DNA of 64,000 nt from Lactobacillus sp. W8174. Lineage in GTDB: Bacteria; Bacillota; Bacilli; Lactobacillales; Lactobacillaceae. Every line of letters starts with the position of its first letter. Positions within the stretch are counted from its first letter, which is position 1. A program made the position numbers and the translations under genes. Below are positions 1,182 to 16,940 of this stretch, in pieces. The notes beneath the pieces were generated by a model that made no database searches, had not been told where the DNA came from, and saw nothing but the letters and a program-made list of their open reading frames with translations. The stretch is from NCBI RefSeq assembly GCF_016100975.1, contig NZ_JACFRN010000003.1:1-64000 (forward strand), read 5' to 3'.

Positions 1182-3065
1182 ATGATGAAATCAGGAACTT
1201 ATGAAGTAAAAGCTAAAGGTCATGGCTCTAGTTTTATGCCTATGAAGGTGTCACTTTCTGAAGATAAAATCAAAGAAATAGATATTGATTCCAGTGGTGA
1301 AACTGCAGGTGTAGCAGATGAAGTCTTTAAACGTCTGCCCAAGCAAATTATTGCTAATCAAACTTTAAATGTTGATGCTGTTAGTGGAGCTACAATTTCC
1401 AGTCATGGCGTGATAGATGGTGTGGCTCAGGCGATTACAAAAGCTGGTGGAAATGCACAAGAATGGCTTAACAGACCAAAGCCTCAGGCTGCTAATGATT
1501 CTGACAGAGAATACCAAACTGACGTTGTAGTTGTTGGAGCAGGTGGTGCGGGCCTCACTGCAGCCGCCAGAACCATTCAAAATGGTAAAAAAGTAATTGT
1601 ATTAGAAAAATTCCCTCAAATTGGTGGTAATACTACAAGGGCTGGTGGCCCTTTGAACGCTGCTGAACCAGAGTGGCAAAATAAATTTAAAGCCTTACCT
1701 GGTGAAAAAGAAAGCTTGGAAAAATTAGCCGCTACGCCAATTGCTGAAATTGATCCAGAATATCGTGATGACTTTAAAGAATTGCAAAAGCAAATTAAGG
1801 CTTATGTAGATTCTGGTAAAAATTATCTGTTTGACTCGGTTTTACTACATGAAATACAGACTTATTTAGGTGGTAAAAGAACTGACTTAAATGGTAATGA
1901 AATTCACGGCAATTATGCTCTAGTTACTGAACTTGTTAATAATGTACTTGATTCAGTTAAGTGGCTAACTGATTTAGGAGTGAAGTTTGACCGCTCTGAT
2001 GTCACCATGCCGGTTGGAGCTTTGTGGCGGCGCGGTCACAAGCCAGTTGAACCTATGGGCTATGCCTTTATTCACGTTTTGGGTGATTGGGTAAAAGAAC
2101 ATGGTGCTACAGTTTTAACAGAAACCCGGGCCCAACACTTAATTATTGAAGACGGTAAAGTTACAGGAGTTGTAGCTCAAAGCAGTGAGGGTAGTAAAGT
2201 TACCATTCATGCGCAAAAAGTAATTTTAACTTCTGGCGGTTTTGGTGCCAACACTAAAATGGTGCAAAAATATAACACTTACTGGAAACACATTGATGAC
2301 GATATTGCTACTACTAATTCACCTGCAATTACTGGTGACGGTATTGCCTTAGGTCAAGAGGCTGGTGCTGATTTAGTGGGGATGGGATTTATTCAATTAA
2401 TGCCTGTCTCTGATCCAAAGACTGGTGAATTATTTACTGGTATTCAAACTCCGCCCGAAAACTTTATTATGGTCAATCAAAAAGGTGAACGTTTTGTAAA
2501 TGAATTTGCTGAACGCGATACTTTGGCTAAGGCCGCTATTGCCAATGGCACTTTGTTCTACTTAATAGCTGATGAAAAAATAAAAGCTACAGCTTATAAC
2601 ACAACCGAAGAATCACTTGAGGCTCAGGTAAAAGCGGGTACTTTGTTAAAGGCAGACACTTTGGAGGAATTAGCTGAAAAAGCCGGTATGGATCCAGCTA
2701 CTTTGGTCAATACTATTAAAAAATATAATTCATATGTTGACGCAGGTAATGATCCAGAATTTGGTAAAAGCGCGTTTAACCTTAAATGTGAAGTTGCACC
2801 GTTTTATGCCACTCCGCGTAAGCCGGCTATTCACCATACAATGGGTGGCTTAAAGATCAACCCGAAAGCACAAGTATTAAATAAAGATGGACAAGTAATT
2901 ACTGGTCTTTATGCAGCAGGGGAAGTCGCTGGTGGCTTACATGCCGGTAATCGTCTAGGTGGTAATTCACTAGCTGATATCTTTACCTTTGGTCGCATTG
3001 CTGCTGACACTGCCTGTAGTGAAATTGCAGATAATGATGTGGTGACAGGTGCATCAAAGGAATAA
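1182..3065 (+). CDS. FMN_bind/FAD fumarate-reductase-family flavoprotein
   Basis: This 627-residue protein has an FMN_bind domain at about 5-90 with a flavinylation motif DAVSGAT (65-71), where ApbE would attach FMN to Thr71. An FAD_binding_2 reductase domain follows (GAGGAG dinucleotide fold near 118-123). There is no signal peptide, so it should be cytosolic. Compared with flavocytochrome c3, the catalytic Arg of the RFVNE..RD segment, the HHTMGG histidine and the NRLGGN arginine are kept. The His of the YIQAHP segment appears to be Met (FIQLMP), so fumarate may not be the substrate; urocanate-, acrylate- or cinnamate-type reductases are alternatives. The C terminus carries a further DVVTGAS motif (619-625). 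A Shine-Dalgarno AAGGA precedes the ATG. Confidence 0.85.
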
Positions 3066-3084: not shown

Positions 3085-3111
3085 AAAGGAAGGCTCGAGC
3101 CTTCCTTTTTT
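3085..3111. terminator. Bidirectional terminator between convergent genes
   Basis: A near-perfect hairpin (AAAGGAAGGC with GCCTTCCTTT around a minimal loop) is flanked by A and T runs on its two sides. It can therefore terminate the flavoprotein transcript and the convergent citG-like transcript, whose stop codon it touches. Confidence 0.85.
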
Positions 3112-3931
3112 ATATGTATCCACGTTCTAGAGCTACAAAAATGGTAACAATTAACAAATCTGCACAGCCGCCTAAACTATAATTCTGTTCTAGACAGTCA
3201 TCATTTAATTTTTGCAGACATTTTTTCCCAGCTGGAGAAACATAACCACCTAGCTCTAAATATTTGTTGGCTGCTTGATGTAGCCAATCAATTACATTAT
3301 AATTTCCAGCTCGCTTGATCAGATTACTGTCAACTGTAACTGTTGCTATTTTCATTAGGGTATCAAGGAGTCTCGTTTGGAGCGTTCCCTTACTGTTTTT
3401 TAAAAAAGGTAAAGCTACTTCACGTACAATGGGATAGCCTTGTTCCGCCTGAGCACGAGCCCCACCAATATGATACTGTTCAAATTCTTTTTCACCTGCT
3501 GTTTGTAACTCATTATTTTGAATCAGATCATGCTGTACAAGTCCTTTACACATCTTGCTGATAGTCAGAAATAGTTCAGTATTGTTTGTCATACTGTAGC
3601 TTTCAGCACAAACAAAAATGCCTAGAGCAAAAATTGCCCCTTTATGTGTATTAGCGCCGTGCGTTGCAGCAAACATTTCTTTTTCAGCAGTGATGCCTCT
3701 TTTCCTTAATTGCTGAAACATTTGCGTTAAATCAGTCGACTGAAAGGTTTGCCCAATTTCAACAGCAGTAGCAAAATATGTTTCCAAGCTTAAACTGCTG
3801 TCAATAAAAGTATAAATATTCATATCGGGATGCGGCCCTTGGCTGATAGGATCTACTAAACCAGGTTTTGGCGCGGTAACAACTTCATATAAGAGTGAGC
3901 GTAGAGCATTTTTTGTAATTGAATTAGTCAT
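3110..3931 (-). CDS. citG: CitG-like triphosphoribosyl-dephospho-CoA synthase
   Basis: The 273-residue protein matches the CitG/MdcB family throughout. It shows the N-terminal APKPGLVD segment (about 20-27) and the diagnostic NTHKGAIFALG segment near the middle. The family makes the 2'-(5''-triphosphoribosyl)-3'-dephospho-CoA prosthetic group of citrate lyase or malonate decarboxylase from ATP and dephospho-CoA. No carrier subunit (CitD/MdcC), lyase subunit or CitX is in the window, so its client protein must be elsewhere or it has another role. It lies 10 bp behind the NMO-like gene in a presumed LysR-NMO-citG operon. No good Shine-Dalgarno precedes its ATG, which suggests translational coupling. 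Confidence 0.82.
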   Translation of the reverse strand: MTNSITKNALRSLLYEVVTAPKPGLVDPISQGPHPDMNIYTFIDSSLSLETYFATAVEIGQTFQSTDLTQMFQQLRKRGITAEKEMFAATHGANTHKGAIFALGIFVCAESYSMTNNTELFLTISKMCKGLVQHDLIQNNELQTAGEKEFEQYHIGGARAQAEQGYPIVREVALPFLKNSKGTLQTRLLDTLMKIATVTVDSNLIKRAGNYNVIDWLHQAANKYLELGGYVSPAGKKCLQKLNDDCLEQNYSLGGCADLLIVTIFVALERGYI

Positions 3932-3941: not shown

Positions 3942-4937
3942 TTAATTGTTATTAGTTAATTCTGCAATAGTTTCATGAGCAGTTTTAATAGTTTTGATGT
4001 TATAACTGTCTGCTGCAATATCAGTATACCCCATTTCAAGATCACCTTTTGCCATACCGTTTATTAATCCCTGATAACCGTCTGCAGCAGTAAAAATTTG
4101 CTTTTCGTCTTCGTTATCCTGTGTTAATTTTGCCAGTTTCTGGGGCAATTTTCCAGGTAAAGAATAGATAGTCCGCGAGTTCATTTTAAAACTAATTAGT
4201 TCATGTTTTTGTGCATTTATGATTTTGCCTTTGATTATTGGTGAAGTTGGAGCTTCTTTAGCAAGTGCAAAAACTGTCTTAAGAAAAACCCCTTGTGCAC
4301 CTTTTGTCAATGCGTCTTTCAAAACATGCGAGTCAGTAGTATCATACCCAGCTAAAACAGGTGTTTTTCCTGCTTGATGAACGAAATTTGCCAGCTCGAT
4401 GTTACTTTTGCAGATTAAAATGTCAATACCATTACTTTGAGCTGCACGAATATTATTAATATTATTAATAACTTGCATAATTTTAATGCCACTATTATGT
4501 AGTAGATTTACCCATGCTTTAGATGCAACTCTTCCAAAACCTTCAAACAGTGCAATAGTTAACCTTCTTTTTTGCATTAATTCTACTAATTCGGTTGCTC
4601 TATGATCATCTTCCGGGTTAGATGAGGTGCTAGCAATTTCCACTCCAAAAGACCTAAAGGTATTAGATAGAGTTTGATCAATTTGCTCATTCATCAAGTT
4701 TCTTTCTGTCATGGCATCAAGCAAAGAATTGTTGCTAATGGTACCTATTTTATTTGAATTAGAAATAGAAGCGCTTGATGTCGCGTCGCTTCTAACCTTA
4801 TAGCCTGCATTAATACCTAAAATGCCCAGTGCACCAGATTCTGAAATAGCAGCAACTAGTTTGCCATCTGTTAAGGTGTGGATAGGTTCGTGAACAATAG
4901 GGTAATTTGTTCCCAATAATTGACAAATTTTATTCAT
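3942..4937 (-). CDS. Nitronate monooxygenase / FabK-like FMN enzyme
   Basis: The 331-residue protein has the TIM-barrel pattern of the 2-nitropropane dioxygenase (NMO)/enoyl-ACP reductase II family. The N-terminal YPIVHEPIHTLTDGKLVAAI segment corresponds to the family's YPIIQAPM.G...P.LAAAVS start, and a late AGYDTTD...ALTKGAQGVFLKT segment corresponds to its flavin phosphate-binding part. I chose ATG 4937, where AAAGG lies upstream, over longer frames that overlap the LysR gene. It sits 22 bp after that LysR gene and 10 bp before citG. The catalytic His and the usual AGGI loop are poorly conserved, so the substrate is unknown. A flavin-dependent oxidoreductase is the safe call. Confidence 0.7.
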   Translation of the reverse strand: MNKICQLLGTNYPIVHEPIHTLTDGKLVAAISESGALGILGINAGYKVRSDATSSASISNSNKIGTISNNSLLDAMTERNLMNEQIDQTLSNTFRSFGVEIASTSSNPEDDHRATELVELMQKRRLTIALFEGFGRVASKAWVNLLHNSGIKIMQVINNINNIRAAQSNGIDILICKSNIELANFVHQAGKTPVLAGYDTTDSHVLKDALTKGAQGVFLKTVFALAKEAPTSPIIKGKIINAQKHELISFKMNSRTIYSLPGKLPQKLAKLTQDNEDEKQIFTAADGYQGLINGMAKGDLEMGYTDIAADSYNIKTIKTAHETIAELTNNN

Positions 4938-4959: not shown

Positions 4960-5874
4960 TTATTTGACAGGAATATTATCGACGATTTTCTGAATATCTG
5001 GTTTATGGCCTTTAAGAAAGTCAATGAAATCAACTATTTCTGGTGAAAAGTTTTGACTTGAATCATATACCAGGTAAACCTGACGAGTATTTTTGGGCAA
5101 ATCCAGTTTGATGATGTGGATGTCGAAACCGCTCAAATAAATAGTTTTTGCTACTACACCAACGATATCGTTGGTCAAAACTTGTCCTGCAATTGCTAGC
5201 TCATCATGAAGCCTGTTCGTAATATTCAGATCAGAGGCATTAGCCAGTAAAGCATTAGTGATGTCTTTTCCAATTTGAATTTTTTTAGAATAGGTAATAA
5301 TTGACTCACCCTGTAATTCTTCGGGAGAGATTTCATTTATTTTTGCTAGATCATTTTCCTTTGAAACAATGGCAATGATTTCTTCAGTGTAAAGGGGAAT
5401 GTAAGTAAAATAACTAAATTCAGGTACGAAAGAAGAAATTCCGATATCATACCAGCCATTTTTGATACCTTCGCAAATCTGATATGAAGGGTTATCGTGG
5501 TATATAAAATGAGGTGAAATATTACTTTCTTGTTGATATTGCTTAGTTAAGTTAGGCAAAATGGTTCCAATTGCAGTGGGTATACCAGCAATATGTATAT
5601 TGCCTTGATCCTGACTGATACGCTGTTCAATTTTCTTTTTGCCGCGATCTAAAGAGTCTAAAGATTTGGTTACAGTATCGTAAAAAATACGTCCATATTC
5701 AGTTAACTGCACGTAATGACCATTGTGTTTAAACAGTTGGCAGTGTAATTCTTTTTCAAGTTGTTTAATCGATACTGAGAGGGTAGGCTGACTGATAAAT
5801 AAGCTGTCTGCTGCTTTAGTGTATTGTTTTTGATCTGCCAATTCACGAAAATAGTAAAGTTGATTTAAATTCAT
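4960..5874 (-). CDS. LysR-family transcriptional regulator
   Basis: This 304-residue LysR protein has its helix-turn-helix at about residues 15-42 and the effector-binding region at about 90-290. It is encoded upstream of, and co-directional with, the NMO-like and citG-like genes, and divergently from the acyl-CoA dehydrogenase operon at 6235, with a 360-bp spacer between them. It is therefore the best candidate activator of the CoA-dependent operon, with a phenolic or hydroaromatic acid or its CoA ester as a plausible ligand (inference). It is a paralogue of the LysR protein encoded at 140-1066, not a copy. Confidence 0.9.
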   Translation of the reverse strand: MNLNQLYYFRELADQKQYTKAADSLFISQPTLSVSIKQLEKELHCQLFKHNGHYVQLTEYGRIFYDTVTKSLDSLDRGKKKIEQRISQDQGNIHIAGIPTAIGTILPNLTKQYQQESNISPHFIYHDNPSYQICEGIKNGWYDIGISSFVPEFSYFTYIPLYTEEIIAIVSKENDLAKINEISPEELQGESIITYSKKIQIGKDITNALLANASDLNITNRLHDELAIAGQVLTNDIVGVVAKTIYLSGFDIHIIKLDLPKNTRQVYLVYDSSQNFSPEIVDFIDFLKGHKPDIQKIVDNIPVK

Positions 5875-6019: not shown

Positions 6020-6046
6020 GACTCCCTAAATTTGGTGAGTCTTTTT
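6020..6046 (+). terminator. Leader terminator upstream of the acyl-CoA dehydrogenase operon
   Basis: GACTC (6020-6024) pairs with GAGTC (6037-6041), with two further pairs inside, followed by five T residues on the plus strand. It lies about 190 bp before the first ORF of the operon and after no plus-strand gene, so it ends either a short leader RNA or an attenuated transcript. The rest of the 5875-6234 spacer is AT-rich, and no ORF is seen in it. Confidence 0.55.
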
Positions 6047-6184
6047 AATTTGTGCAGGTAATAATAATAGAATTCCACCTTTTTCAATATATTTAGCCAT
6101 AAAGGTATTTATAAAATTAATAGTTCTGACTTTGTTATCAATTTTACAATCTAAACTTTTTAAAACATAATACAGCTGTTGATA

Positions 6185-6199
6185 GAAAAACGCTTTCAA
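6185..6199. promoter_or_regulatory. cre site (CcpA) upstream of the CoA operon
   Basis: Read on the minus strand, TTGAAAGCGTTTTTC matches WTGAAARCGYTTTCW except for its last two positions. It lies 36 bp before the ATG at 6235, downstream of any likely promoter, which is a position typical of CcpA roadblock repression. This predicts that the operon is repressed on rapidly used sugars. Confidence 0.6.
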
Positions 6200-6234
6200 A
6201 AGCATTTACTGAAAGTTTAAAAGGAGATTGTATT

Positions 6235-7485
6235 ATGACAGAACAAAAGAAATTACATGTATTACCACCATATGAAGAAACTCCGATTATGCACAAAACT
6301 AAACCAGGTGAATCAATGCCTGAAGAAGACTTTGAAAACTACTTAAAAGAAATTCGTCACTTGGCACAAAACGAGTTTGACAGAATGACCCCATACATAG
6401 AGGAAAATCGCAAGTTTCCGCAAGACTTTTTCCCAATTGCAATTAAGCATGATTTATATCGTTTTGCACTGCCTAAAGAATACGGCGGCTGGGGTCTTAG
6501 TGAAAAACAAATTCTGCAAGTTCAAGAAGAATTTTCAAGAACTCAGGGTGGAATTAGAATGCACTTGCACCATGCTTCAGATATGAACTGGCGGATTTTG
6601 GATAATTTTGGTAGTCAAGAACTTAAAGATAAGTACATGAACAAGTTCCAAGACAAATCAATTTATGCCAATTTTGCTTTAACCGAAAAGAGCGGTGGTA
6701 CTGGAGCAGACCTTCATACTTTAGCTGTTAAGGACGGTGAAGACTGGGTAATAAACGGTGAAAAAACACTGATTTCTCATGCAGATGTTGCAGACTTTAC
6801 CTACTTAATTGTGGTTACTGACCCAGATAAAGAAGGGGATGAAAGGTTATCAGCTTTCTTTGTCCCAACAAATACACCGGGATTTGAATCCAACGAGATG
6901 CCTTTAATGATGGGTTGTCGTGGTGCTGGACATGCCGATTTGAAATTCACTAATATGAGAGTACCTGATAAGTACATGCTTGGCAAGAGAGGAGAGGGTA
7001 TGAAAGTAGCTATTTCTTCACTTTCACTTTCTCGTGCTCATATTGCTGACTCCAATTTAGGTATGGCGCAACGGATGTTAGAAATGTCCATTGCTTATTC
7101 TAAAGACCGAGTAACTTTTGGTAAGCCACTGTGTAAACGGCAATCAATCATTTTTGAAATTGCTGACATGGGTGCACGCATTCATGCCCTTAGGTTAATG
7201 TTGTGGGACTTGGCAAAAGATTATGACGAAGGAAAGGATATTACCAAGAAAGCTTCTCTAGCCAAACTGGAAAGCATCAATACTGTCAAATTAGTTTCTG
7301 ATTACATGCTTGAAATCTTTGGTGGTATTGGCTACTTCCAGGACAATCCTTATGGACCTGCTGAAAGACTTTACCGTGATTGTCGTGCTATGTGGTTAGA
7401 AGAAGGACCTCGTTCCGTTCAAAGACTAACTGCAGGTCGTTTATTAATTAAAGACGGTGGCAATACACCAATAACAAGTCTTTAA
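6235..7485 (+). CDS. Acyl-CoA dehydrogenase/reductase (first of two)
   Basis: This 416-residue flavoenzyme has all three acyl-CoA dehydrogenase domains. The middle FAD-binding segment reads ALTEKSGGTGAD, and the C-terminal helical domain contains FGGIGYFQDNPYGPAERLYRD followed by LEEGP, whose Glu occupies the usual catalytic-base position. It has an N-terminal extension of about 35 residues compared with the second enzyme at 8845. Paralogous pairs of this kind occur in carnitine (CaiA) and aryl-acrylate operons, where the enzyme works as an enoyl-CoA reductase fed by ETF. It is the first gene of the operon and is preceded by AAAGGAG. The acyl group cannot be identified from sequence. Confidence 0.9.
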   Translation: MTEQKKLHVLPPYEETPIMHKTKPGESMPEEDFENYLKEIRHLAQNEFDRMTPYIEENRKFPQDFFPIAIKHDLYRFALPKEYGGWGLSEKQILQVQEEFSRTQGGIRMHLHHASDMNWRILDNFGSQELKDKYMNKFQDKSIYANFALTEKSGGTGADLHTLAVKDGEDWVINGEKTLISHADVADFTYLIVVTDPDKEGDERLSAFFVPTNTPGFESNEMPLMMGCRGAGHADLKFTNMRVPDKYMLGKRGEGMKVAISSLSLSRAHIADSNLGMAQRMLEMSIAYSKDRVTFGKPLCKRQSIIFEIADMGARIHALRLMLWDLAKDYDEGKDITKKASLAKLESINTVKLVSDYMLEIFGGIGYFQDNPYGPAERLYRDCRAMWLEEGPRSVQRLTAGRLLIKDGGNTPITSL

Positions 7486-7520
7486 AGTAATCAATTAAAT
7501 TAATTTGAGTAAATAAATCA

Positions 7521-7566
7521 AGGAGGGCTGAATCTAAAACTTACTTTGCAAGGTTCAATCCTCTTT
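7521..7566 (+). other. Intercistronic hairpin between first and second operon genes
   Basis: AGGA...TGAATC (7521-7534) can pair with GGTTCA...TCCT (7552-7562), followed by CTTTGTTG. The 106-bp gap is the largest inside the operon. The stem is interrupted and the T run poor, so it may be a partial terminator or an RNA processing site rather than a full stop. Confidence 0.35.
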
Positions 7567-7591
7567 GTTGTATATAGTTTTGGAGAAAAAA

Positions 7592-8836
7592 ATGGCTAAC
7601 GAAATATTATCAGGAATAAGAGTTATTGATCTCACACAATTTTTGGCAGCCCCAACCGTAGGACGAGTCCTTGGAGAATGGGGAGCTGATGTTATTAAAG
7701 TTGAAGCTCCTAAGGGTGATGCTGGAAGAACCCAAGGTGCAGTTTTTGGCATGAAGTATGAAGATGATGAGAATTTGGGCTTTGATGTTTCTAATATGAA
7801 TAAAAGATTCATTACTTTAAACATGAAAACTCCTGAAGGGATGCAAGCTTTTAAAGACCTATTAAAAACCGCAGATGTATTTTTAACATCAGTGAGAACA
7901 AAGAGTTTAGCTCATATGGGAATCACTTGGGAAGAGCTGCATAAAGAATTTCCTAAATTAGTGTTTGCACAAGATCGCGGATATGGTGAATTTGGTCCTA
8001 AAAAAGATTCTGCCGGCTATGACGCAACTGCTTATCAAGCACGTGGCGGAGTTCAGGGAACAACGGTAGATAAAGGAGGGAATCCATATAATCCAGTAAA
8101 TGGCTATGGTGATTTCCAAGTATCAATGACCTTAGCCGCAGGTATTTGTGCAGCCTTACTGAGAGCTCAAAGAACCGGGAAGGGTGATAAGGTTGTCGTT
8201 AACTTGAATCACGCAGCGATATTTATGCAAAATATCGCTATGGTTTCTGCACAATATGGCAATGTATATCCTAAGAGTCGTAAAGAAGTTACTAATCCTT
8301 TTAATGACACTTATAAAACCTCTGATGATCGCTGGTTTGTACTATGCGTTCCCGAATATGACCGTGATTTTGACAAAGTAATGCATGACATTGGTCGTGA
8401 TGATGTCAAAGGCGATGAAAGATATAACAAAATGGACACTTTGAATGCTAATGGTACCAGCAATGAAGTAATTGCCATTTTAGAAGATGCTTTTAAGAAA
8501 AAACCGTTGCAGTATTGGATAGACCTCTTTAATAAGGAAGACTTACCGCTTGAGGCTTGTCAGATACCAACGGAAATATACCAGGATCCTGAGGCTTTGG
8601 ATAATGATGAAATTAGACTGATGGAATTTCCATCTGGAAATAAGAGATTTATTCCCACTAATCCAGTACGCTTTTCATCTCAAGGCAAGCCTACGCTAAC
8701 TCCTTCTCGTGCTCAGGGATCTGATACACGCGAAGTACTCAAAGATGAGTTAGGCTACAGCGATGAAAAAATCAGTGAGATGTTTGCCAGTGGTGCTGCC
8801 AGTGGCCTGCGTCATATAGGAGACCCAATTAAATAG
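7592..8836 (+). CDS. Class III (CaiB/BaiF-type) acyl-CoA transferase
   Basis: The 414-residue protein is a CaiB/BaiF family CoA-transferase. It begins LSGIRVIDLTQFLAAP, has the ADVIKVEAPKGD segment near 40-51, and keeps the catalytic Asp in AGYDATAYQA. Family members move CoA between carboxylic acids through an aspartyl-CoA thioester; CaiB uses carnitine and crotonobetaine, and CarA uses hydrocaffeate and caffeate. I place the start at ATG 7592, which has GGAG eight bases upstream; the frame stays open further 5'. Lying between two acyl-CoA dehydrogenase genes, it would let the reduced acyl-CoA product activate the next substrate molecule without ATP. Confidence 0.92.
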   Translation: MANEILSGIRVIDLTQFLAAPTVGRVLGEWGADVIKVEAPKGDAGRTQGAVFGMKYEDDENLGFDVSNMNKRFITLNMKTPEGMQAFKDLLKTADVFLTSVRTKSLAHMGITWEELHKEFPKLVFAQDRGYGEFGPKKDSAGYDATAYQARGGVQGTTVDKGGNPYNPVNGYGDFQVSMTLAAGICAALLRAQRTGKGDKVVVNLNHAAIFMQNIAMVSAQYGNVYPKSRKEVTNPFNDTYKTSDDRWFVLCVPEYDRDFDKVMHDIGRDDVKGDERYNKMDTLNANGTSNEVIAILEDAFKKKPLQYWIDLFNKEDLPLEACQIPTEIYQDPEALDNDEIRLMEFPSGNKRFIPTNPVRFSSQGKPTLTPSRAQGSDTREVLKDELGYSDEKISEMFASGAASGLRHIGDPIK

Positions 8837-8844
8837 GTATTAAA

Positions 8845-9990
8845 ATGACATTACTTTATACACAAGAACAAAAAGAATATATTCATTTAGCACAAGAATT
8901 TGGAGATCGGTATCTAACCCCTGAAATTATTAAGAAATATGATTTAAAAGGTGATTGTCCTTCCAGCTTGTTTGAGCCTGCAATTAAAATTGGCCTTCAT
9001 ATGCTTGAGATCCCCAGAGAATATGGTGGTGCTGGCCTTTCTTATGAAGATTCTGCCCTCGTTTTTGAAAAACTGGCTGAATATGATGCAGGTTATGCAC
9101 TTACTTTAATTACCTCATTTGTTGCATTGCGGTGCGTAATGTTAGCTGGTACTGAAGAACAAGCACAAAGATTTGCCGATGTCATCAGACCAGGCCGTTT
9201 CGCTGCCTTTACAATGTCAGAAGCAGATGCTGGCTCTGACGCAGGTTCTGTGAAAGCAACAGCTGTTCGGCAAGGCAATGAATATATTTTAAACGGAAAT
9301 AAAGCTTTTGCTACTAATGGTGGAATTGCTGATATTTTTATTGGGATTTTTAGAACCTCTAATAATGGTAATCACGGCTTATCAGCTTTCATGATTGATA
9401 AAAATACGCCAGGTATTTGGGTAGGAAAGCATGAAGATAAAATGGGACTGCGTTTATCAAATACAGTACCGTTAGGATTTAAAAATGTACACGTGCCAGC
9501 TGAAAATCTGATTGGCCAAGAAGGAAGAGGAATTAATATTGCGTTAAACAGCCTTAACCTCTCACGTGCGTACGTTTCTACTTTGACCGTTGGTGTTATG
9601 CAACGGGCACTTAATGAAGCTGCCAAATATGCCAATCAACGTGAACAATTTAATCAACCGATTTCTCAATTTGAATCTGTGCAAAATATACTTGCTAATA
9701 TGGCAACGGCAGTTGAAACAGCCCGCTTATTAGTCAATAACACAATGAAAATGATGGATAAAGATTTGTCTGTACGTCAAGAAGGAGCAATGACCAAGCT
9801 TTATGTCACTGATGTGGCACAAAAAGTAACTTCTGATGCGGTTCAGATTCTTGGTGGTTATGGTTATACCCGAGCTTATCCGGTTGAAAAGCTAATGCGT
9901 GATGTCAAAGGATTTCAAATTCTGGAAGGAACTAATGAAATTCAGAGAATGACAATTGCACGTGAAGTTAGCAAAAAATATCAGGACTAG
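8845..9990 (+). CDS. Acyl-CoA dehydrogenase/reductase (second of two)
   Basis: This is a canonical 381-residue acyl-CoA dehydrogenase. The FAD and substrate segment AFTMSEADAGSDAGS lies near residues 125-139, and the C terminus reads ILGGYGYTRAYPVEKLMRD followed by ILEGTNEIQ, with the catalytic Glu just before GT. It is closest in style to short- and branched-chain enzymes and to butyryl-CoA dehydrogenase/CarC-type enoyl-CoA reductases that partner EtfAB. It starts 9 bp after the CoA-transferase gene and ends 12 bp before etfB. A beta-oxidation pathway is otherwise absent from the window, which favours reductive use. Confidence 0.93.
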   Translation: MTLLYTQEQKEYIHLAQEFGDRYLTPEIIKKYDLKGDCPSSLFEPAIKIGLHMLEIPREYGGAGLSYEDSALVFEKLAEYDAGYALTLITSFVALRCVMLAGTEEQAQRFADVIRPGRFAAFTMSEADAGSDAGSVKATAVRQGNEYILNGNKAFATNGGIADIFIGIFRTSNNGNHGLSAFMIDKNTPGIWVGKHEDKMGLRLSNTVPLGFKNVHVPAENLIGQEGRGINIALNSLNLSRAYVSTLTVGVMQRALNEAAKYANQREQFNQPISQFESVQNILANMATAVETARLLVNNTMKMMDKDLSVRQEGAMTKLYVTDVAQKVTSDAVQILGGYGYTRAYPVEKLMRDVKGFQILEGTNEIQRMTIAREVSKKYQD

Positions 9991-10002
9991 GAGGGTACCA
10001 TA

Positions 10003-10743
10003 ATGAAAATTGCATTAATTGCCAAGGCTGAAGCAGATAATCCTAAAACTTATACTTCTCATAAGAACAAAGTAACTTATCATCCAGAAAATTTATTTCT
10101 GAGTGAAGAAGACAAAAATGCCCTTGAGTTTGCCCTGCAATTAACAGAGTTAAAAAAAGGTGCTATTGATGTCTTTACTTTTGAACAAAGTGAAGTAGCT
10201 GAACGGATTTTGCATGAAGCACTGGCTATGGGAGCAACAACAGCTACTAAAATTTCAGCAGGTAATATCAATGATCCTTTACTGCAAAATCAAATTGCAA
10301 GTGAATTTGTCCATTACTTAAAAGAAAATAATGAAAATTATGACTTGATTTTAACGGGAAAAACAACATCTTCAGCTTTTCCGGCTGCTATTGCTGCAGG
10401 ATTAGGGATAGCATTTTATGACTATGTTTCTATGATTGATACTTCCCTCAATTATGAAATGAAACTTGAAAAAGGCAAAATTACTGGGCAATGTGTCTTG
10501 CCAGCTGTAATTGCCACGTTAGATTCAATCAATGTGCCACGCCTTGCTAGTTTCACGTCGTTAAGTACAGCAATAAATTCAAGTATTAATAACGTAAGTT
10601 TTAAAACTAGTGATGAAGGCGTTACAAGTGAAATTGTAGCTAAACCAGTTAAAAATGAAAAAACTATTTTCAATCTGGATCAAGATCCTAAAGCTACGCA
10701 AAAACTGGTTGAAATACTTAAGCAAAACGGGATGTTGAGGTAG
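10003..10743 (+). CDS. etfB: Electron transfer flavoprotein beta subunit (EtfB/FixA)
   Basis: The 246-residue protein fits the EtfB/FixA family. It has an N-terminal alpha/beta nucleotide-binding fold and a central DLILTGKTTSSAFPAAIAAGLG segment corresponding to the family's DLVLTG..A.D...GQ.G..LA.LLG, followed by VLPAVIATLDSINVPR. EtfB binds AMP in housekeeping ETFs or a second FAD in bifurcating ETFs; I cannot tell which from the sequence. GGAGG lies upstream of the ATG. It is encoded four bases before etfA and directly after the second acyl-CoA dehydrogenase, so it should pass electrons to one or both dehydrogenases. Confidence 0.9.
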   Translation: MKIALIAKAEADNPKTYTSHKNKVTYHPENLFLSEEDKNALEFALQLTELKKGAIDVFTFEQSEVAERILHEALAMGATTATKISAGNINDPLLQNQIASEFVHYLKENNENYDLILTGKTTSSAFPAAIAAGLGIAFYDYVSMIDTSLNYEMKLEKGKITGQCVLPAVIATLDSINVPRLASFTSLSTAINSSINNVSFKTSDEGVTSEIVAKPVKNEKTIFNLDQDPKATQKLVEILKQNGMLR

Positions 10744-10747
10744 AAAA

Positions 10748-11671
10748 ATGGTACCAATTTATTATATTCAGTTAGAAGATAAGAATATTGATGAAGGTCA
10801 TAACAGTAATAACTTAGCGGGTCTTGACAGCAATTTTAAAGGTAAGAAAGAAGTACTAGTTTTCAGTAATCACGCTAGTGAAATTAAAGATAAATATGCT
10901 TCTTCAGGAGTCAAGACTACCATATACCAAAATGAGAATTTTAGTGTGACAAACTTGCCAGCTGTGACTAATACCCTTAGAAAAATTTTTGTCGATAAGG
11001 AAAATAGTTTAATAGTATTTGATAAGAGTAATTTAGGTAACAGTCTTGGCAGTCAATTAGCTGCTGTACTGAATGTCCCATTTATTTATAATGCCAAAGA
11101 TATTTGCTGTGATCAAGATCATATAATAGTTAATCAGGATATCGGCAAAACACAAGCCTTAAGAAAAGTCACTCTTGATGACAAGGCGGTAATATCTCTT
11201 TCTTGCAATGGTGTCGTAAGCCATAGTAAGAATGAAGTTGACATAATTGACTGGGAATGTACAGAAACTAATGGAGCCGCATATGTACCCGAAGCTAATT
11301 CTGATAATGATTTGGCATATGCAAAAGTGATTGTAGCTGGTGGTAAAGGCCTGGGTTCCCCAGATAAATTTAAACCGTTAGCTACTTTAGCCCAAAAATT
11401 AAATGCCAGCGTGGGAGCAACTAAGGCAGTTACAGATCAAGGCTGGATTGATAAGAACCGCATGATTGGAATATCGAATTTGTCTGTTGCACCAGATGTT
11501 TACTATGCTTTTGGCATTTCAGGAGCTGTCCAGCACACTGCAGGAATGACAAAATCAAAATGTGTCATTGCTGTCAATACCGATGAAGCAGCACCAATTT
11601 TTAAATTAGCGAATTACGGTATTATCGGGGATGCCAACCAAGTAATAAAGCAATTAAATGAGCTTTTGTAA
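10748..11671 (+). CDS. etfA: Electron transfer flavoprotein alpha subunit (EtfA/FixB)
   Basis: The 307-residue protein carries the unmistakable EtfA FAD domain. A GGKGLGSPDKFK segment begins near residue 198, then come GATKAVTDQGW, then YAFGISGAVQHTAGM, and the C-terminal NTDEAAPIFKLANYGIIGD. The N-terminal half is divergent. Unlike CarE of caffeate respiration, there is no added ferredoxin-like N-terminal domain with CxxCxxC motifs, so an electron donor or acceptor other than an in-built iron-sulfur relay is needed. It lies four bases after etfB and ten bases before the CoA ligase. Confidence 0.93.
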   Translation: MVPIYYIQLEDKNIDEGHNSNNLAGLDSNFKGKKEVLVFSNHASEIKDKYASSGVKTTIYQNENFSVTNLPAVTNTLRKIFVDKENSLIVFDKSNLGNSLGSQLAAVLNVPFIYNAKDICCDQDHIIVNQDIGKTQALRKVTLDDKAVISLSCNGVVSHSKNEVDIIDWECTETNGAAYVPEANSDNDLAYAKVIVAGGKGLGSPDKFKPLATLAQKLNASVGATKAVTDQGWIDKNRMIGISNLSVAPDVYYAFGISGAVQHTAGMTKSKCVIAVNTDEAAPIFKLANYGIIGDANQVIKQLNELL

Positions 11672-11680
11672 GGTATAAAA

Positions 11681-13210
11681 ATGATTTCCAGTAAAAAGGT
11701 GCAAACCTTAAATGATTTATGGCAAAAGCGCTTAAAGCAAAGTGGTCAAAGTACTTTTGTCACTGAAGATGGTTGTAAATACAGTTATCAAGAAATAGAT
11801 TTTTTAGCCAATAAGCAGATGGACTTGCTCCGGAATAATGGCATTAAGAAAGGTGATTTAATTGCAATTCAGTTCGAACTGGATCTAGCAAATATTGTAA
11901 CGATTATTGCCTGTATCAAAATGGGAGTGGTTATTAATCCATTAAATCCGCATTTTGATATTGATGAGATTAATAGCATGATTAACAGGTTTAAGCCATA
12001 TGCTATCATTTCGCAAAAATCCGTGCGTGGTCGTGACACTCTTAGTAATATTGCTAATTTAGATAATTATCAGACTAAAAAAATAGCGGACCTGGTATTA
12101 TTTACCAGAAAAAAGCATTTACCATCTGAATTTATTGGAGGTGACGGATCAGATACTCCTGCACTGGTTCTCAATACTTCGGGTACTAGTGGACTTTATA
12201 AAGGCGTAGTTTTAACCAATAAAAATATTATTAGTGCAGAAAGTGCATATAACGACGCTTTTGGCATCACTAAAGATGACATGACTTTAATTCTTTCGGG
12301 GATGTATCATGCAATTGGATTTCATCATGGCTTAATTTCAACGATTATGGCAGGAAGTCATTTGGCAATAATTAAACATTATAATATTGAACAAGTGGTA
12401 AAAATGCTTGAAGAAGAACCAATTACATATATTGATAGTTTGCCTACAATTATGTATGATCTGCTATTTAAAGTTCAAAATTTGGGTAAGCTACGGATGC
12501 TCATTTGTGGAGGTGACAAAATTAAAGAAAGCATTTTGGTTCAAGCTAAAAAAAGAAATATTCCCCTTTACAACTGTTATGGTCTGACAGAAGCAGTGCC
12601 ATTTAGTTATACTCCTCAAGATTATTATTTAAGTAAAGGTGCAATGACCACGGCAGTCAAGCCAATGGCCAATATTAAAGTCAGACTTGTGAAGAACAAA
12701 AATATAATTACAGATAGTAATAAACAAGGTCAAATTGAAGTTGCTGGACCGATCATTTTTAAATGTTACTTGGATGATCCTGAAAAAACGGCTAAAGCAT
12801 TTGACGGTGACTGGTTTGTTACTGGAGATGTTGGTCACTATAATGAAGATAACTTATTGGAAATAGATGGCCGCAATAGCGATAAAATTATTCGTGGTGG
12901 TGAAAATATTTCCGCTCATATGGTTGAAGATAAGATTAAGGGCTGCCAAAATATTGAGGAAGTAGCAGTTTTAGGAGTCCCAGACGTCCGTTTAGGACAG
13001 AGAATTGGTGCCTTTATTGTTCTAAATCATGGCCAAAAAGTATTAACCAAAGCTGAGTTAATTTCAGAATTAAAAAAGCAGCATGTTGATAAAAAATTAT
13101 GGCCTGAAAAGCTATGGGTTGTTGATTCATTACCAAAAACGTCAAATGGCAAAATAAAGAAGTATCTTTTAAAAAATTGGCTGGAAGGTAAAAAAGTAAA
13201 TGAAGAATAA
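11681..13210 (+). CDS. AMP-forming acyl/aryl-CoA ligase
   Basis: This 509-residue ANL-superfamily enzyme has the phosphate loop LNTSGTSGLYKGVVLTNKN near 166-184, YGLTEAVP (A5 motif), TGDVGHYNEDNLLEIDGRNSDK (A7-A8 hinge) and a C-terminal PKTSNGKIKKY with the adenylation lysine. It would activate a carboxylic acid with ATP and CoA through an acyl-adenylate. Length and context resemble CaiC, CarB and 4-coumarate-CoA ligases. In such operons the ligase primes the cycle and the CoA-transferase sustains it. It overlaps the next gene by 11 bp, indicating translational coupling. Confidence 0.9.
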   Translation: MISSKKVQTLNDLWQKRLKQSGQSTFVTEDGCKYSYQEIDFLANKQMDLLRNNGIKKGDLIAIQFELDLANIVTIIACIKMGVVINPLNPHFDIDEINSMINRFKPYAIISQKSVRGRDTLSNIANLDNYQTKKIADLVLFTRKKHLPSEFIGGDGSDTPALVLNTSGTSGLYKGVVLTNKNIISAESAYNDAFGITKDDMTLILSGMYHAIGFHHGLISTIMAGSHLAIIKHYNIEQVVKMLEEEPITYIDSLPTIMYDLLFKVQNLGKLRMLICGGDKIKESILVQAKKRNIPLYNCYGLTEAVPFSYTPQDYYLSKGAMTTAVKPMANIKVRLVKNKNIITDSNKQGQIEVAGPIIFKCYLDDPEKTAKAFDGDWFVTGDVGHYNEDNLLEIDGRNSDKIIRGGENISAHMVEDKIKGCQNIEEVAVLGVPDVRLGQRIGAFIVLNHGQKVLTKAELISELKKQHVDKKLWPEKLWVVDSLPKTSNGKIKKYLLKNWLEGKKVNEE

Positions 13211-13649
13211 ATTTTTTAAACGTCAAATGGCAGATTATTTTGTAACTCCAAGGATGCTTAACCATATGGAAATTACTCATGGTGGAACGCTCTTAGATAA
13301 TGCAGACTCAGCAATGGGCTTGTTTGCAAATTCATATTGCCATAAGCGTACGTTAACTGGTCGAATAGATAAATTTATTTTTCATAAAAAAAGTTATGCT
13401 GGTGATCATATTTGCTTTTGCGTAACTTTATTAAAAACGACAGCAAAAACAATGACTATTTATGCGGAAGTGAACAGAATTTCTCTTGATAATTCATGTT
13501 CGGAATTAATCGGTGAAGCGGTATTTACCTATGTTGCAGTTAATGCAAACTTGGAGCCGATCTCAGGTTCTATTGAGCAATACCATGTTACTGATGCAGA
13601 AGAAAAAGAATATATTGAATCAGTCAAAAAGAGATTTGGCATTAAATAG
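13200..13649 (+). CDS. Hotdog-fold acyl-CoA thioesterase
   Basis: The 149-residue protein resembles YciA/ACOT-type hotdog thioesterases. The MEITHGGTLLDNADSAMGLFAN segment (about 22-43) corresponds to the central hotdog helix with its catalytic Asp, and a following beta-sheet core includes IDKFIFHKKSYAGDHICFCV. It would hydrolyse an acyl-CoA of the pathway, either freeing the reduced end product or recovering CoA from stalled intermediates. Its start lies within the end of the ligase gene. Specificity is unknown. Confidence 0.78.
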   Translation: MKNKFFKRQMADYFVTPRMLNHMEITHGGTLLDNADSAMGLFANSYCHKRTLTGRIDKFIFHKKSYAGDHICFCVTLLKTTAKTMTIYAEVNRISLDNSCSELIGEAVFTYVAVNANLEPISGSIEQYHVTDAEEKEYIESVKKRFGIK

Positions 13650-13811
13650 AGTCATTTTGAGTTGAGGTCCTGGTTTAATTTGTTTATTAGTAAAACTATT
13701 AATTATAACTATTTAAGTATTAAATTATTTAATAAATTATGGACCAAGTTATAGCGATTAATTACCCAATAAACACCAAATTCAAGACACTAACTTTTTG
13801 ATAAAGCAAGA

Positions 13812-13833
13812 AAGCATTGATATACCAATGCTT
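13812..13833. terminator. Hairpin, possible end of the CoA operon
   Basis: AAGCATTG pairs with CAATGCTT around a six-base loop in the 13650-13949 spacer. The T tract (TTATTTTTTA) starts about 12 bases downstream, so termination would be inefficient. Apart from this the spacer is AT-rich. The gap suggests that the MFS gene has its own promoter, although no clear -35/-10 pair stands out. Confidence 0.4.
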
Positions 13834-13949
13834 GTGGTTATAGTTATTTTTTATAATTTGGTAATCATAAATAATTATTCATATTCTTTGTAATAAGATA
13901 TATTTATTTATGAAATTATTAGCAAATCTTAATTTTGAAAGGTAAAGCT

Positions 13950-15149
13950 ATGAAAAAAGAAAAAAATTATGTTGGCGTTGCTGCCTCTGTGTACATCCAT
14001 TTTGCGGTTGTTGGAGCAGCTACCTTATTTATTAGTCAATATAGAGAAATCCTGGCACACTCTTGGAATGCCAATGAAACCCAAGTCTCGCTAGTAATCG
14101 CAATGGTGGGCTTAGGCAGAATTATTACAATTTTATTTGCCGGCGCTATTTCAGATAAGATAGGCCGGAAAAGAACTTTGTTAATTGCATTGCTCAGTGA
14201 CGCAGTTTTCCTTCTCGGCGCTGTTTTTGCTAACAATATCTGGGTTGCTGGCCTAGCGGCTATGTTTTTCGGGGCAACTAATTCATTTGGTGATACAGCA
14301 GGTTACCCTGCACTTGCAGACGCTTTTCCAGATAAAACAGCTACAATGAACTCATTTGTTAAGGCTGCAATGCAAGTGATGCAGATGCTGTTTCCTTTTT
14401 GTGTGAAACTAATTAAAAATCCAAAGATTACAGCATTTATTTTAGTTATTATTATTTTATTGGATGTTGTATTTACAATGAAGACTGCCTTTGCTCCCCA
14501 AGCTGAGGCAAAAGAGACTACTGAAACAGAAGAAGAAAAAGAAACCAGTTTAAGTAGTCAAAACCAACCTAAGTTAGCCGTTGATGGTCTAATGATCATT
14601 GGGTTGGGCTTTACGCTTTGCTTCACATTTTATATTTTTTCACTCTATGCTCCTTATTACGGACAGTATGTTTTAAATGAATCTGCTGCTAATGCCAATC
14701 AGCTTGTATCATGGTATTCAATTGCTTCCTTAATATCTGTATTTGTTACATCAGCTCTAGTTACTAAGGTAAAGAGATTGAATTTAATTATGGTTTATTC
14801 AGCTATTACTGCTCTTGGTCTGCTGTTTATGGTCTTAAAGCCATCCCTATTAGCTGGGGAAATAGGCGCATTAGCTGTTGGTTTCTTTACTGCAGGAGGA
14901 GTATGGCAAGTTGGACTTTCAGTTTTAACTTCTTATTTCCCCCAAAGTCACGGAAAGATTACATCATACTACAGTTTTGCACCAGCAGTAGTTTACTTCG
15001 TAGCACCACTTGTAGCTGCATTTGTATTAAAGGCCAATGCTGCAAGTACACTCATGGTATTTTGGATAACTACAGTGATAACGATTATTTCTGTAGTTCT
15101 GTGTGTTGTCTTAATTAGTCGTGGTAAAAATTTCAACATCAAAAATTAA
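13950..15149 (+). CDS. MFS transporter, probably organic or aromatic acid uptake
   Basis: This 399-residue protein has about twelve hydrophobic segments and the MFS loop-2/3 signature in GAISDKIGRKRTLL (about 68-81). An acidic central loop (about 185-210) separates the two halves. I chose ATG 13950, preceded by GAAAGG. It is the first gene of a tight group with a flavoprotein, a shikimate/quinate dehydrogenase and 3-dehydroquinase, so import of quinate, shikimate or a related plant acid, or exchange for the reduced product, is the likely role (inference from context). Confidence 0.85.
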   Translation: MKKEKNYVGVAASVYIHFAVVGAATLFISQYREILAHSWNANETQVSLVIAMVGLGRIITILFAGAISDKIGRKRTLLIALLSDAVFLLGAVFANNIWVAGLAAMFFGATNSFGDTAGYPALADAFPDKTATMNSFVKAAMQVMQMLFPFCVKLIKNPKITAFILVIIILLDVVFTMKTAFAPQAEAKETTETEEEKETSLSSQNQPKLAVDGLMIIGLGFTLCFTFYIFSLYAPYYGQYVLNESAANANQLVSWYSIASLISVFVTSALVTKVKRLNLIMVYSAITALGLLFMVLKPSLLAGEIGALAVGFFTAGGVWQVGLSVLTSYFPQSHGKITSYYSFAPAVVYFVAPLVAAFVLKANAASTLMVFWITTVITIISVVLCVVLISRGKNFNIKN

Positions 15150-15170: not shown

Positions 15171-16940
15171 ATGACAGAAAAAATAATTAAAGCAACGGCA
15201 GAAGGAAGAAATGGTCAAATTGACTTTGACATCAAAGTTGAAAATAATCAAATTGCAGATATTAATGTAACCAAAACTGCAGAAACCCCGGGTATCTTCA
15301 ATCAGGTTGTAGGTAAATTAAAAAAGAATATTATTAATAGTCAAAGTTTCAATGTCGATGCCATTTCTGGTGCTTCGATTATGACACAAGCCATGCTTGA
15401 TTCTGGAAAGAAAGCGTTAAAAGCAAATGGTGTAGATATTGTTGCTAAGTCTAGTGATAAGTCGCATCAAGATGTAACTTATGATGTGGATGTAGCTGTA
15501 ATTGGTTCAGGTATGGCAGGCTTGATGGCAGCTTCTCGGGCACTATCAATGGGTAAAAACGTTCTTTTAATTGAAAAGAATGGCTATCTCGGTGGAGCTA
15601 CAATTCTTAATGGTTCCAATGTGGTTGGTACTGGTTCAAAACTAGCAGCTGCTTTATTTGGCAAGGAAGCTAAAAAAGATTCTCCACAGCTCCTGGTTCA
15701 AGATATTGTTCGTGAATGTCGGGGGACTAATTATCCACTACTTTCAAATATACTTGCTCAAAATATTGGTAAAGCAGTTGATTTTATCACTGAATTTGCA
15801 GACCTTACTTATCAAAAAGCTGAAACACAGACTATTGAGCATTCTGTTGACAGGCAAATTGAAATGCCCTCAGAGAGTTCTTATGAAGTAGTTTCTAAAG
15901 TGGCAAATGCCTTTACCAAAAAGGGTGGCAAAATTTTACTTGAAACTCGGGTGGAACAACTTAATAAAAACAAACAGGGTCAGCTTGTTTCATTAGTTGC
16001 TGAAGGTAAGCACGAAACTGTTACTGTAAACTTTAAGTCCCTAGTTATGGCAGCTGGTGGCTGGGGCGCTCGTGATTATCGGCAGCATAAGACTAATATT
16101 CCTTATTACGGTCCGATGACTTCTACTGGTGATTATTTCGATTTTGCTAAAAATATGAATCTGGCTACACGCAATCTTGACTGGTATAAAGTATACCCTC
16201 ATGGTTTAGAAGTTGAACCTGGTATCGCCAAACTAACCACCTATTCAACAAAAGAAGCTACAGACATGGGTGCTATTTTTGTCAATACCAGTGGTAAGCG
16301 AATTGTAAATGAATCTGCCCCATACACTCATTTTCGGGATGCTATTGCTGAGCAAAAGGATAAAATTGCTTTTGTAGTAATGGATGAAAGAACATGGAAC
16401 AGATTCTATGAATTGCTTCTTAAATATGGTTTTACCAAAGATGAAGTTCAAGGTTTCTTTGATCTTGACGGCAAGAAGAGTCCGATTTTAGTAAGCGGAG
16501 ATTTGCAAACAGTGGCTCAAAAAGCTGGCATTGATTATGAAAACCTAAAGAAGACTTTAACTGACTACGAAAAATATGTTGCCTCAGGTAATGATCCTGA
16601 GTTTGGTCGCCCTTCTCAGTTTATGCATAAATATGAAGGTGATAACTACTTTGTGATTGAACAGAAATTACGCTTTTGTACTACTCTTGGTGGCTATGAG
16701 ACTAACCGGCATATGCAGCTTTTAGACCAAAACTTTGAAGCACTAGACAATTTCTATGCCGCTGGTGAGATTGTTGGCGGTGCTAATGGTCATGATTCAA
16801 TGCCAAGTATGATGAATTCTTGGTCCTATGCTTCAGGTTTTGTGGCCGGAACAGAGGCTGCTGATAATGCTAACTATCAAAAGCTGGCAAAAACTGCGTC
16901 CAATTCAACTGATACAGTGTCTGGTGCTTCTAAAAATTAA
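15171..16940 (+). CDS. FMN_bind/FAD flavoprotein reductase with atypical active site
   Basis: This 589-residue flavoprotein has the same layout as the one at 1182. An FMN_bind domain (about 3-85) carries DAISGAS at 63-69, where Ser69 replaces the usual flavinylated Thr, and the FAD domain begins GSGMAG. It has no signal peptide. The residues that hold fumarate in flavocytochrome c3 are not kept: the YIQAHP region reads WYKVYP, HHTMGG reads CTTLGG, and the NRLGGN arginine region reads HDSMPSMMNSW. The substrate is therefore unlikely to be fumarate. With AroE- and AroD-like genes directly downstream, a cyclohexene acid or cyclohexenone is a reasonable guess. A C-terminal DTVSGAS motif (581-587) mirrors that of its paralogue. 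Confidence 0.83.
   Translation: MTEKIIKATAEGRNGQIDFDIKVENNQIADINVTKTAETPGIFNQVVGKLKKNIINSQSFNVDAISGASIMTQAMLDSGKKALKANGVDIVAKSSDKSHQDVTYDVDVAVIGSGMAGLMAASRALSMGKNVLLIEKNGYLGGATILNGSNVVGTGSKLAAALFGKEAKKDSPQLLVQDIVRECRGTNYPLLSNILAQNIGKAVDFITEFADLTYQKAETQTIEHSVDRQIEMPSESSYEVVSKVANAFTKKGGKILLETRVEQLNKNKQGQLVSLVAEGKHETVTVNFKSLVMAAGGWGARDYRQHKTNIPYYGPMTSTGDYFDFAKNMNLATRNLDWYKVYPHGLEVEPGIAKLTTYSTKEATDMGAIFVNTSGKRIVNESAPYTHFRDAIAEQKDKIAFVVMDERTWNRFYELLLKYGFTKDEVQGFFDLDGKKSPILVSGDLQTVAQKAGIDYENLKKTLTDYEKYVASGNDPEFGRPSQFMHKYEGDNYFVIEQKLRFCTTLGGYETNRHMQLLDQNFEALDNFYAAGEIVGGANGHDSMPSMMNSWSYASGFVAGTEAADNANYQKLAKTASNSTDTVSGASKN

Follow-up and report, generated by a model that had tools for sequence, protein, structure and literature searches.

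A conserved CoA-dependent cassette beside shikimate genes in Lactobacillus sp. W8174 and its possible role in the reduction of hydroaromatic acids

The 64,000-nucleotide stretch analyzed here (Lactobacillus sp. W8174, contig NZ_JACFRN010000003.1, positions 1 to 64,000; hereafter the window) raises the question of what a fermentative lactobacillus does with seven adjacent genes (6235–13649) for two acyl-CoA dehydrogenases, a class III CoA-transferase, both subunits of an electron transfer flavoprotein (ETF), an AMP-forming acyl-CoA ligase and a thioesterase. A first-pass annotation, made from the sequence only, had described these genes as a caffeate-respiration-like operon fed by NADH through the ETF. 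The cassette was found to be more specific than that, namely a real, conserved and shikimate-linked CoA-reduction system. From its setting we infer, with confidence somewhat above even, that it is a CoA-dependent electron sink which reduces hydroaromatic acids of the shikimate/quinate type.

The seven-gene cassette

Seven intact frames on one strand were present in the open-frame list of the window, in agreement with the first-pass annotation:

6235..7485, + strand: ACAD1, acyl-CoA dehydrogenase and marker gene of the system (Pfam N, M and C domains above cut-off)
7592..8836 (ATG at 7592; alternative TTG start at 7565), + strand: class III CoA-transferase, CoAT (PF02515 CoA_transf_3, 284.5 bits)
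8845..9990, + strand: ACAD2, second acyl-CoA dehydrogenase (Pfam N, M and C domains; contains LEGTNEIQR)
10003..10743, + strand: EtfB, with a degenerate and shortened nucleotide loop (PF01012, 41.6 bits)
10748..11671, + strand: EtfA, 307 amino acids (ETF domain; ETF_alpha FAD-binding domain PF00766, 102 bits)
11681..13210, + strand: AMP-forming acyl-CoA ligase, LIG (PF00501/PF13193)
13200..13649, + strand: 4HBT thioesterase, TE (PF03061)

The first gap, from ACAD1 to the transferase ATG, is 106 bp; the next four measure 8, 12, 4 and 9 bp, and the ligase and thioesterase genes overlap by 11 bp. The close packing and the functions that had been named were confirmed by frames, strand and Pfam domains. 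As gene order and content are kept in relatives, the cassette is not a chance assembly. Within the genome (2.05 Mb, completeness 99.99), PF00441 detected no acyl-CoA dehydrogenase beyond ACAD1 and ACAD2, and PF01012 no ETF gene beyond EtfB and EtfA. The enoyl-CoA hydratase family PF00378 had zero matches (13 of 14 controls positive), thiolase and hydroxyacyl-CoA dehydrogenase being outside this search, and beta-oxidation is, as had been proposed, unlikely in a genome lacking a PF00378 gene. Promoter-like sites (40, compared to 30.1 with a standard deviation of 5.3 in shuffles) and terminator-like sites (6, compared to 5.3) were also counted, with no conclusion resting on either.

The shikimate locus around the cassette

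The first-pass annotation had overlooked the downstream neighbors of the cassette, an MFS transporter gene lying 300 bp 3′ of the thioesterase gene and then genes for a flavoprotein, AroE and AroD, all on the strand of the cassette. Several genes of the locus are kept in the Lactobacillus non-carriers L143–L145, which lack the cassette. The flanking genes are:

140..1066, − strand: LysR regulator 1 (Pfam LysR_substrate, HTH_1; kept in L143–L145)
1182..3065, + strand: FRD1, FMN_bind and FAD_binding_2 flavoprotein (Pfam; kept in L143–L145)
3110..3931, − strand: CitG-family gene (PF01874, 232.4 bits; kept in L143–L145)
3942..4937 (ATG at 4937; frame extends upstream to a TTG at 5033), − strand: NMO-family (PF03060) flavoenzyme (66.4 bits, cut-off 28, with the query started four codons upstream of the ATG)
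4960..5874, − strand: LysR regulator 2 (Pfam), divergent from the operon
13950..15149 (alternative TTG start at 13935), + strand: MFS transporter (PF07690; kept in L143–L145)
15171..16940, + strand: FRD2, FMN_bind and FAD_binding_2 flavoprotein of the flavocytochrome c type (Pfam/NCBIfam; kept in L143–L145)
16984..17898, + strand: AroE, shikimate dehydrogenase (NF001313, 478.5 bits, cut-off 431)
17914..18672, + strand: AroD, type I 3-dehydroquinate dehydratase (PF01487, 238.2 bits)

No shikimate kinase (PF01202; 12 of 14 controls positive) and no chorismate synthase (PF01264; 14 of 14) was found in the genome, these two being the aromatic-biosynthesis markers whose absence was established, with aroA and aroB not among the markers searched. 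Because both are absent, it is unlikely that AroE and AroD serve biosynthesis, and aromatic amino acid biosynthesis was set aside as the reason for their presence. For the markers searched, AroE and AroD occur without the rest of the aromatic pathway, as in a shikimate/quinate catabolic locus. Among the test substrates that had been suggested, shikimate is the one favored by this gene setting. The caffeate-respiration-like identity was not supported, and shikimate genes as neighbors count against the reduction of a hydroxycinnamate (caffeate, p-coumarate or ferulate) with NADH through the ETF.

CitG belongs to a family of citrate-lyase prosthetic-group enzymes; by eye, no citrate lyase gene was noticed among the frames of the window.

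Conservation in Lactobacillaceae and other phyla

A survey was made of 397 family genomes, sampled evenly from a larger group. The statement that lactobacilli normally lack acyl-CoA dehydrogenases proved roughly right, yet 94 of the 397 genomes gave some match to ACAD1 at E 0.001, 11 of them to the ACAD1 type itself (64–100% identity; the gene is broken in G033). The order ACAD1-CoAT-ACAD2-EtfB-EtfA-LIG was kept in all ten family loci besides that of the window; in G342 the frame of the ligase gene is split.

In a wider survey of species genomes the best 80 of 162 ACAD1 relatives were kept, and their genes were labeled with profiles built from the same loci, within flanks of at most 10 kb and with some contigs ending early. 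The core genes were found at high frequency (ACAD1 80, CoAT 74, LIG 72, ACAD2 72, EtfA 58, EtfB 56), some of the EtfB, EtfA and ACAD2 labels in Actinomycetota loci being low-scoring. A LysR gene was present in 61 of the 80 loci and the accessory genes were CysP (52), TE (40), GntP (21), AroE (13), AroD (5) and GlcD (5), with AroD found in 5 of the 13 AroE-bearing loci. By name, the organisms are gut-type anaerobes, acetogens and bee-type lactobacilli. AroE linkage occurs in two phyla, in Bacillota (Lactobacillus L057–L060, Eubacterium L076, Flavonifractor L077 with a low score, Oscillospiraceae L087, Lachnospiraceae L134) and Actinomycetota (Slackia L105 and L110, Eggerthellaceae L133), as well as in two unclassified metagenome-assembled genomes (L071, L073). 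When the stretches were extended, AroE and AroD also came into view in Agrilactobacillus composti (L035) and in G050 (L041). On a quick ACAD1 tree (85 rows) the AroE-linkage label required at least nine changes. By chance, an estimated 0.6 to 1.1 of 80 loci would show such linkage, assuming one or two AroE genes per 3-Mb genome. The linkage in 13 of 80 loci, the number of changes and the comparison with non-carriers described below place cassette and shikimate genes together in separate lineages.

The same survey bears on the possibility that another enoic acid (medium-chain, branched, aliphatic or crotonobetaine) is reduced by a cassette that merely shares its regulator and locus with shikimate use. 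In 67 of the 80 loci no AroE was found within the flank; these include the acetogens and, apart from L134, all of the 21 loci that bear GntP. The best model for the ligase was the medium-chain fatty-acid--CoA ligase NF004758, the cut-off of which (736 bits) was passed by both relatives' ligases tested (L075 and L117; 770.7 and 756.9 bits) and not by that of the window (352.5 bits). These points weigh against a shikimate-type substrate. Against another enoic acid stand the recurrent co-location of AroE/AroD in separate lineages and the low scores on the crotonobetaine models given below, and we regard this explanation as unlikely.

The CysP gene, which encodes a small Cys-rich protein (e.g., L068:17140–17664), accompanies the ligase gene in many relatives and was not found in the window. 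Four cysteines were invariant in 39 of 39 rows, Pfam Desulfoferrod_N scored slightly below cut-off, and the structure model gave matches (best E 1.1e-05, probability 1.00) to folds of the superoxide reductase/desulfoferrodoxin kind. The CysP model gave no match in the genome of the window in a search run without a positive control. A plasmid search for homologs at E 1e-60 returned 5 records, none from a lactobacillus. One such replicon, Sporomusa termitida plasmid pSPTER (L148), carries an ACAD1 homolog (58%), a second acyl-CoA dehydrogenase, EtfBA, a ligase and a CaiB-type transferase, together with a hypothetical gene of about CysP size, LysR, two MFS, SDR, alcohol dehydrogenase and UbiD decarboxylase genes.

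Carriers and non-carriers in the genus Lactobacillus

ACAD1 was present in 10 of 75 genus genomes, and in 9 of these 10 carriers AroD lies 11–14 kb from ACAD1 on the same contig and strand. Full-length AroD (a match at E 2.5e-70 or better) was found in 9 of 10 carriers compared to 21 of the 65 other genomes (Fisher p 0.0008, uncorrected for kinship). Six of these 21 non-carriers (L140–L145) were compared with the window. In L143, L144 and L145 the order LysR1-FRD1-CitG-LysR2-MFS-FRD2-AroE-AroD is that of the window, minus the NMO gene and the seven cassette genes; L140–L142 have FRD, LysR, AroE and AroD homologs arranged in other ways. Alignment of L144 by blastn covered 4942–5989 and 13838–18695 of the window, with 5990–13837 (7848 bp) missing and about 209 other bases lying between the conserved flanks of L144. 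Most of the NMO gene (4077–4941) is likewise missing from L144. Gain of the cassette in carriers and its loss in non-carriers would fit this comparison alike and cannot be told apart.

The NMO flavoenzyme (3942–4937) was observed to accompany the cassette in Lactobacillus carriers and to be missing from L143, L144 and L145. Across about 17 kb the DNA of the window is 94–95% identical to Lactobacillus huangpiensis and L. kimbladii, which are honeybee gut species. Compared to G359, ACAD1, CoAT and ACAD2 are 94, 91 and 91% identical, EtfB, EtfA and LIG just 56, 63 and 61%, and this contrast within 6235–13210 may reflect either a strong rate difference or a mosaic origin.

Acyl-CoA dehydrogenases

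In ACAD1, Glu390-Gly391 and the histidines 110, 112, 182, 233 and 269 showed no variation across the 45 aligned rows. The Glu-Gly pair is presumably at the usual position of the catalytic base, and the histidines would suit a polar substrate. A fragment of ACAD1 used as query gave 7 matches, which did not include the cyclohex-1-ene-1-carboxyl-CoA dehydrogenase 7p98, an enzyme with a catalytic aspartate in this region. ACAD1 has an aspartate near that position (Asp116, in 40 of the 45 rows), but Thermus 1ukw has one in the same column, and nothing was drawn from it.

The structure model of ACAD1 (pLDDT, the predicted local distance difference test, 87.3) matches numerous dehydrogenases whose Z scores lie only a few units apart. 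The caffeyl-CoA reductase subunit CarC (6fah_C) ranked second with Z 45.6, tied with several others, and the cyclohex-1-ene-1-carboxyl-CoA dehydrogenase 7p9a gave Z 43.6. Because these and many others match so closely, the predicted fold does not decide the substrate. Hydroxycinnamate reduction draws some support from the CarC match, as it does from having the same functional classes as Car; by sequence, however, CarC was just 12th for ACAD1 (172.6 bits) and 6th for ACAD2 among 47 solved-structure matches, and the presence of two dehydrogenases also argues against it.

Among NCBIfam models both dehydrogenases scored highest on acryloyl-CoA reductase (238.8 and 327.4 bits, cut-off 640), followed by cyclohexane-1-carbonyl-CoA dehydrogenase (NF043006, 197 and 293.9 bits, cut-off 650; the related TIGR03207 gave 120.9 and 179.7, cut-off 575.35). 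AcrB (30.2 bits, cut-off 475) and AcrA (110.6, cut-off 600) also remained low, as did the carnitine models CaiA (120.3 and 172.6, cut-off 540), CaiB (111.2, cut-off 413) and CaiC (156.2, cut-off 651). In a comparison with curated Acr and Cai families, as the annotation had proposed, the equivalog scores are thus far below cut-off.

These results also bear on an oxidative or disproportionating role, in which the dehydrogenases would introduce double bonds into a hydroaromatic CoA ester on the way to an aromatic acid and pass electrons via the ETF to FRD1, FRD2 or another acceptor. Two dehydrogenases with an ETF resemble the cyclohexanecarboxylate pathways, as seen in the second-best model and the 7p9a match, and one article notes that formation of benzoate/hippurate from shikimic acid by the gut flora has been both reported and disputed (PMC7558350). 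On the other side, the acryloyl-CoA reductase model is the best for both enzymes, though below cut-off, no acceptor was identified, and a fermenting lactobacillus generally requires electron sinks and not sources. Such an oxidative role is considered quite unlikely.

The electron transfer flavoprotein and its electron donor

The motif DGDT is present in the aligned EtfB chains 6fah_B (CarD), 5ol2_B, 4kpu_B, 7koe_A and 7qh2_B, all reportedly of bifurcating ETFs; these five structures alone make up the reference set for the motif. DGDT was kept in 35 of 66 EtfB rows (clostridia, acetogens, Lachnospiraceae, Halanaerobium and similar) and missing in 31, which comprise 21 Lactobacillaceae rows (17 once four likely duplicates are removed), Bifidobacterium asteroides and nine low-scoring Actinomycetota. 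In the genus Lactobacillus the loop is 3–4 residues shorter, and in the window it reads GKTTSSA, its aspartates gone. On the ACAD1 tree, 3 changes are required to account for the DGDT label, and the losses may therefore be separate events. POR_N was not detected in the genome (10 of 14 controls positive), ferredoxins being outside this search. Because DGDT is missing, the loop is shortened and POR_N is absent, an ETF of the window type is probably non-bifurcating, and the NADH-fed, Car-type ETF that had been envisaged was not borne out. The lack of the DGDT seen in CarD and an EtfA of 307 residues compared to 396 in the CarE chain count further against hydroxycinnamate reduction, which is very unlikely overall.

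Of 10 distinct non-DGDT loci from Lactobacillaceae and Bifidobacterium outside the genus Lactobacillus, 9 have a gene for a GlcD-type dehydrogenase next to the operon, G332 being the exception. None was found there in the 8 loci of the genus Lactobacillus (some of them with short flanks), in the 9 non-DGDT Actinomycetota rows or in the 35 DGDT rows. Electron transfer from lactate to an enoyl-CoA needs no bifurcation on energetic grounds, and where GlcD adjoins the operon lactate is a plausible donor. A chromosomal GlcD homolog, that of L137 being 39–44% identical to the operon-linked GlcDs, is present in 48 of the 75 genus genomes and in 8 of 10 carriers, so that lactate is no more than a possible donor in the genome of the window.

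Proposed function

Shikimate is a cyclohex-1-ene-1-carboxylate, and its CoA ester would therefore contain a C=C bond conjugated to the thioester, the bond reduced by enzymes of this kind. In the reduction of shikimate/quinate-type acids favored here, the MFS protein would import quinate or shikimate, and AroD and AroE would interconvert dehydroquinate, dehydroshikimate and shikimate. The ring acid would be primed as a CoA thioester by the ligase, and the class III transferase would hand CoA from product to fresh substrate; such priming and recycling, already suggested by the annotation, is supported by the gene content of a CoA-dependent operon. The dehydrogenases, fed by EtfAB, would reduce the conjugated ring C=C, and the reduced acid would be released by thioesterase or transferase. 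In Lactiplantibacillus, Agrilactobacillus and Bifidobacterium asteroides, the donor could be lactate through the GlcD-type enzyme. With two dehydrogenases the ring could be reduced twice in succession, once after loss of an allylic hydroxyl, to give 3,4-dihydroxycyclohexanecarboxylate, a product of lactobacilli on quinate.

A number of observations weigh against this scheme. Neither the substrate nor the direction is proven by any feature of the sequence, and no dehydratase for the loss of the allylic hydroxyl was identified. Carrier G418 has no AroD match, and carriers G359 and G417 are without a chromosomal GlcD homolog. As non-carriers retain AroE, AroD, FRD1 and FRD2, the shikimate locus must function without the cassette, which would either extend the locus or replace a possible FRD2 step; FRD2 could itself be the ring reductase of the locus. 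In winter bees, one study gives higher quinate and shikimate, linked to bacterial synthesis (PMC9600256). In favor of the scheme, an ion annotated as quinate is among the pollen compounds that the bee gut microbiota depletes most, through several members and both in vivo and in vitro, the passages in question not stating which species use it (PMC5726620). The main text of an article on the niches of bee Lactobacillus is without quinate or shikimate (PMC8456714).

A wider and more tentative proposal, which we consider doubtful, is that the operon family performs the gut-bacterial reductive removal of hydroxyls from quinate/shikimate to dihydroxycyclohexane- or cyclohexane-carboxylate, and that the ETF of lactobacilli, originally bifurcating, has turned into a carrier with one flavin, which in some lineages receives its electrons from a GlcD-type lactate dehydrogenase. 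Hydroxyl removal would run via CoA esters and dienes, with the two dehydrogenases used in turn, and would be the microbial step preceding host hippurate. According to a later pharmacokinetics article, Brewster et al. (1978) found that gut flora turn shikimate to cyclohexanecarboxylate, which host tissue aromatizes and joins to glycine (PMC7558350), and hippuric acid is elsewhere said possibly to arise by microbial conversion of quinic acid (PMC6331829). Within CC-licensed PMC literature (titles and starts of abstracts) no article was found in which this set of genes is connected with quinate or shikimate, which is no proof of novelty, and the same searches gave no genes for the gut-flora step from shikimate to cyclohexanecarboxylate.

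If the reduction of hydroaromatic acids is correct, lactobacilli would have a further electron sink, and their ETF would be a natural case of loss of the bifurcation motif in a genome where POR_N was not found. As the cassette is conserved across gut-type anaerobes, acetogens and bee-type lactobacilli, the gene basis of gut shikimate reduction becomes testable.

Elsewhere in the window (35537–40379), a row of adjacent similar-looking predicted proteins, DUF4097-like by eye, and a short DUF1700-like gene were observed.

Comparison with known systems

Reduction of quinate and shikimate by lactobacilli is reportedly classical physiology (Whiting and Coggins), with the same expected substrate and hydrogen-acceptor role as proposed here; we know of no genes for it. 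CarABCDE of Acetobacterium woodii shares a CoA ligase and CoA-transferase (CarA and CarB), an acyl-CoA dehydrogenase-type reductase, EtfB and EtfA. The window differs in its two dehydrogenases, an EtfB without DGDT, its shikimate-gene setting and its shorter EtfA, of which residues 184–304 align to CarE 267–388, the greater length of CarE presumably being an extra N-terminal domain. Four Acetobacterium records (L070, L072, L074, L084) carry the operon type of the window, there with DGDT in EtfB. The AcrABC acryloyl-CoA reductase of Clostridium has the best-scoring model for both dehydrogenases, although far under cut-off and in a different setting, and an acrylate pathway was rejected as the AcrA, AcrB and AcrC cut-offs were not reached.

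The Cai/Fix carnitine system likewise has a CoA ligase, class III CoA-transferase, dehydrogenase and ETF. Carnitine/crotonobetaine reduction was rejected on the low CaiA, CaiB and CaiC scores, and the genome lacks the PF00378 hydratase family, to which CaiD belongs. The cyclohexanecarboxylate/cyclohexene-carboxyl-CoA pathway of Syntrophus, Geobacter and Rhodopseudomonas has two dehydrogenases, an ETF and a CoA ligase for a C6 ring acid; it differs in that its models score below cut-off here and a PF00378 gene is absent. The Bai operon for bile-acid dehydroxylation works in a similar way, with priming by a ligase, recycling by a class III CoA-transferase, flavin reductases and an MFS transporter, but with different dehydrogenase families and substrate, and no membership in it is claimed. 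By the sequence comparisons made, the cassette works like Car and Cai and is a member of neither.

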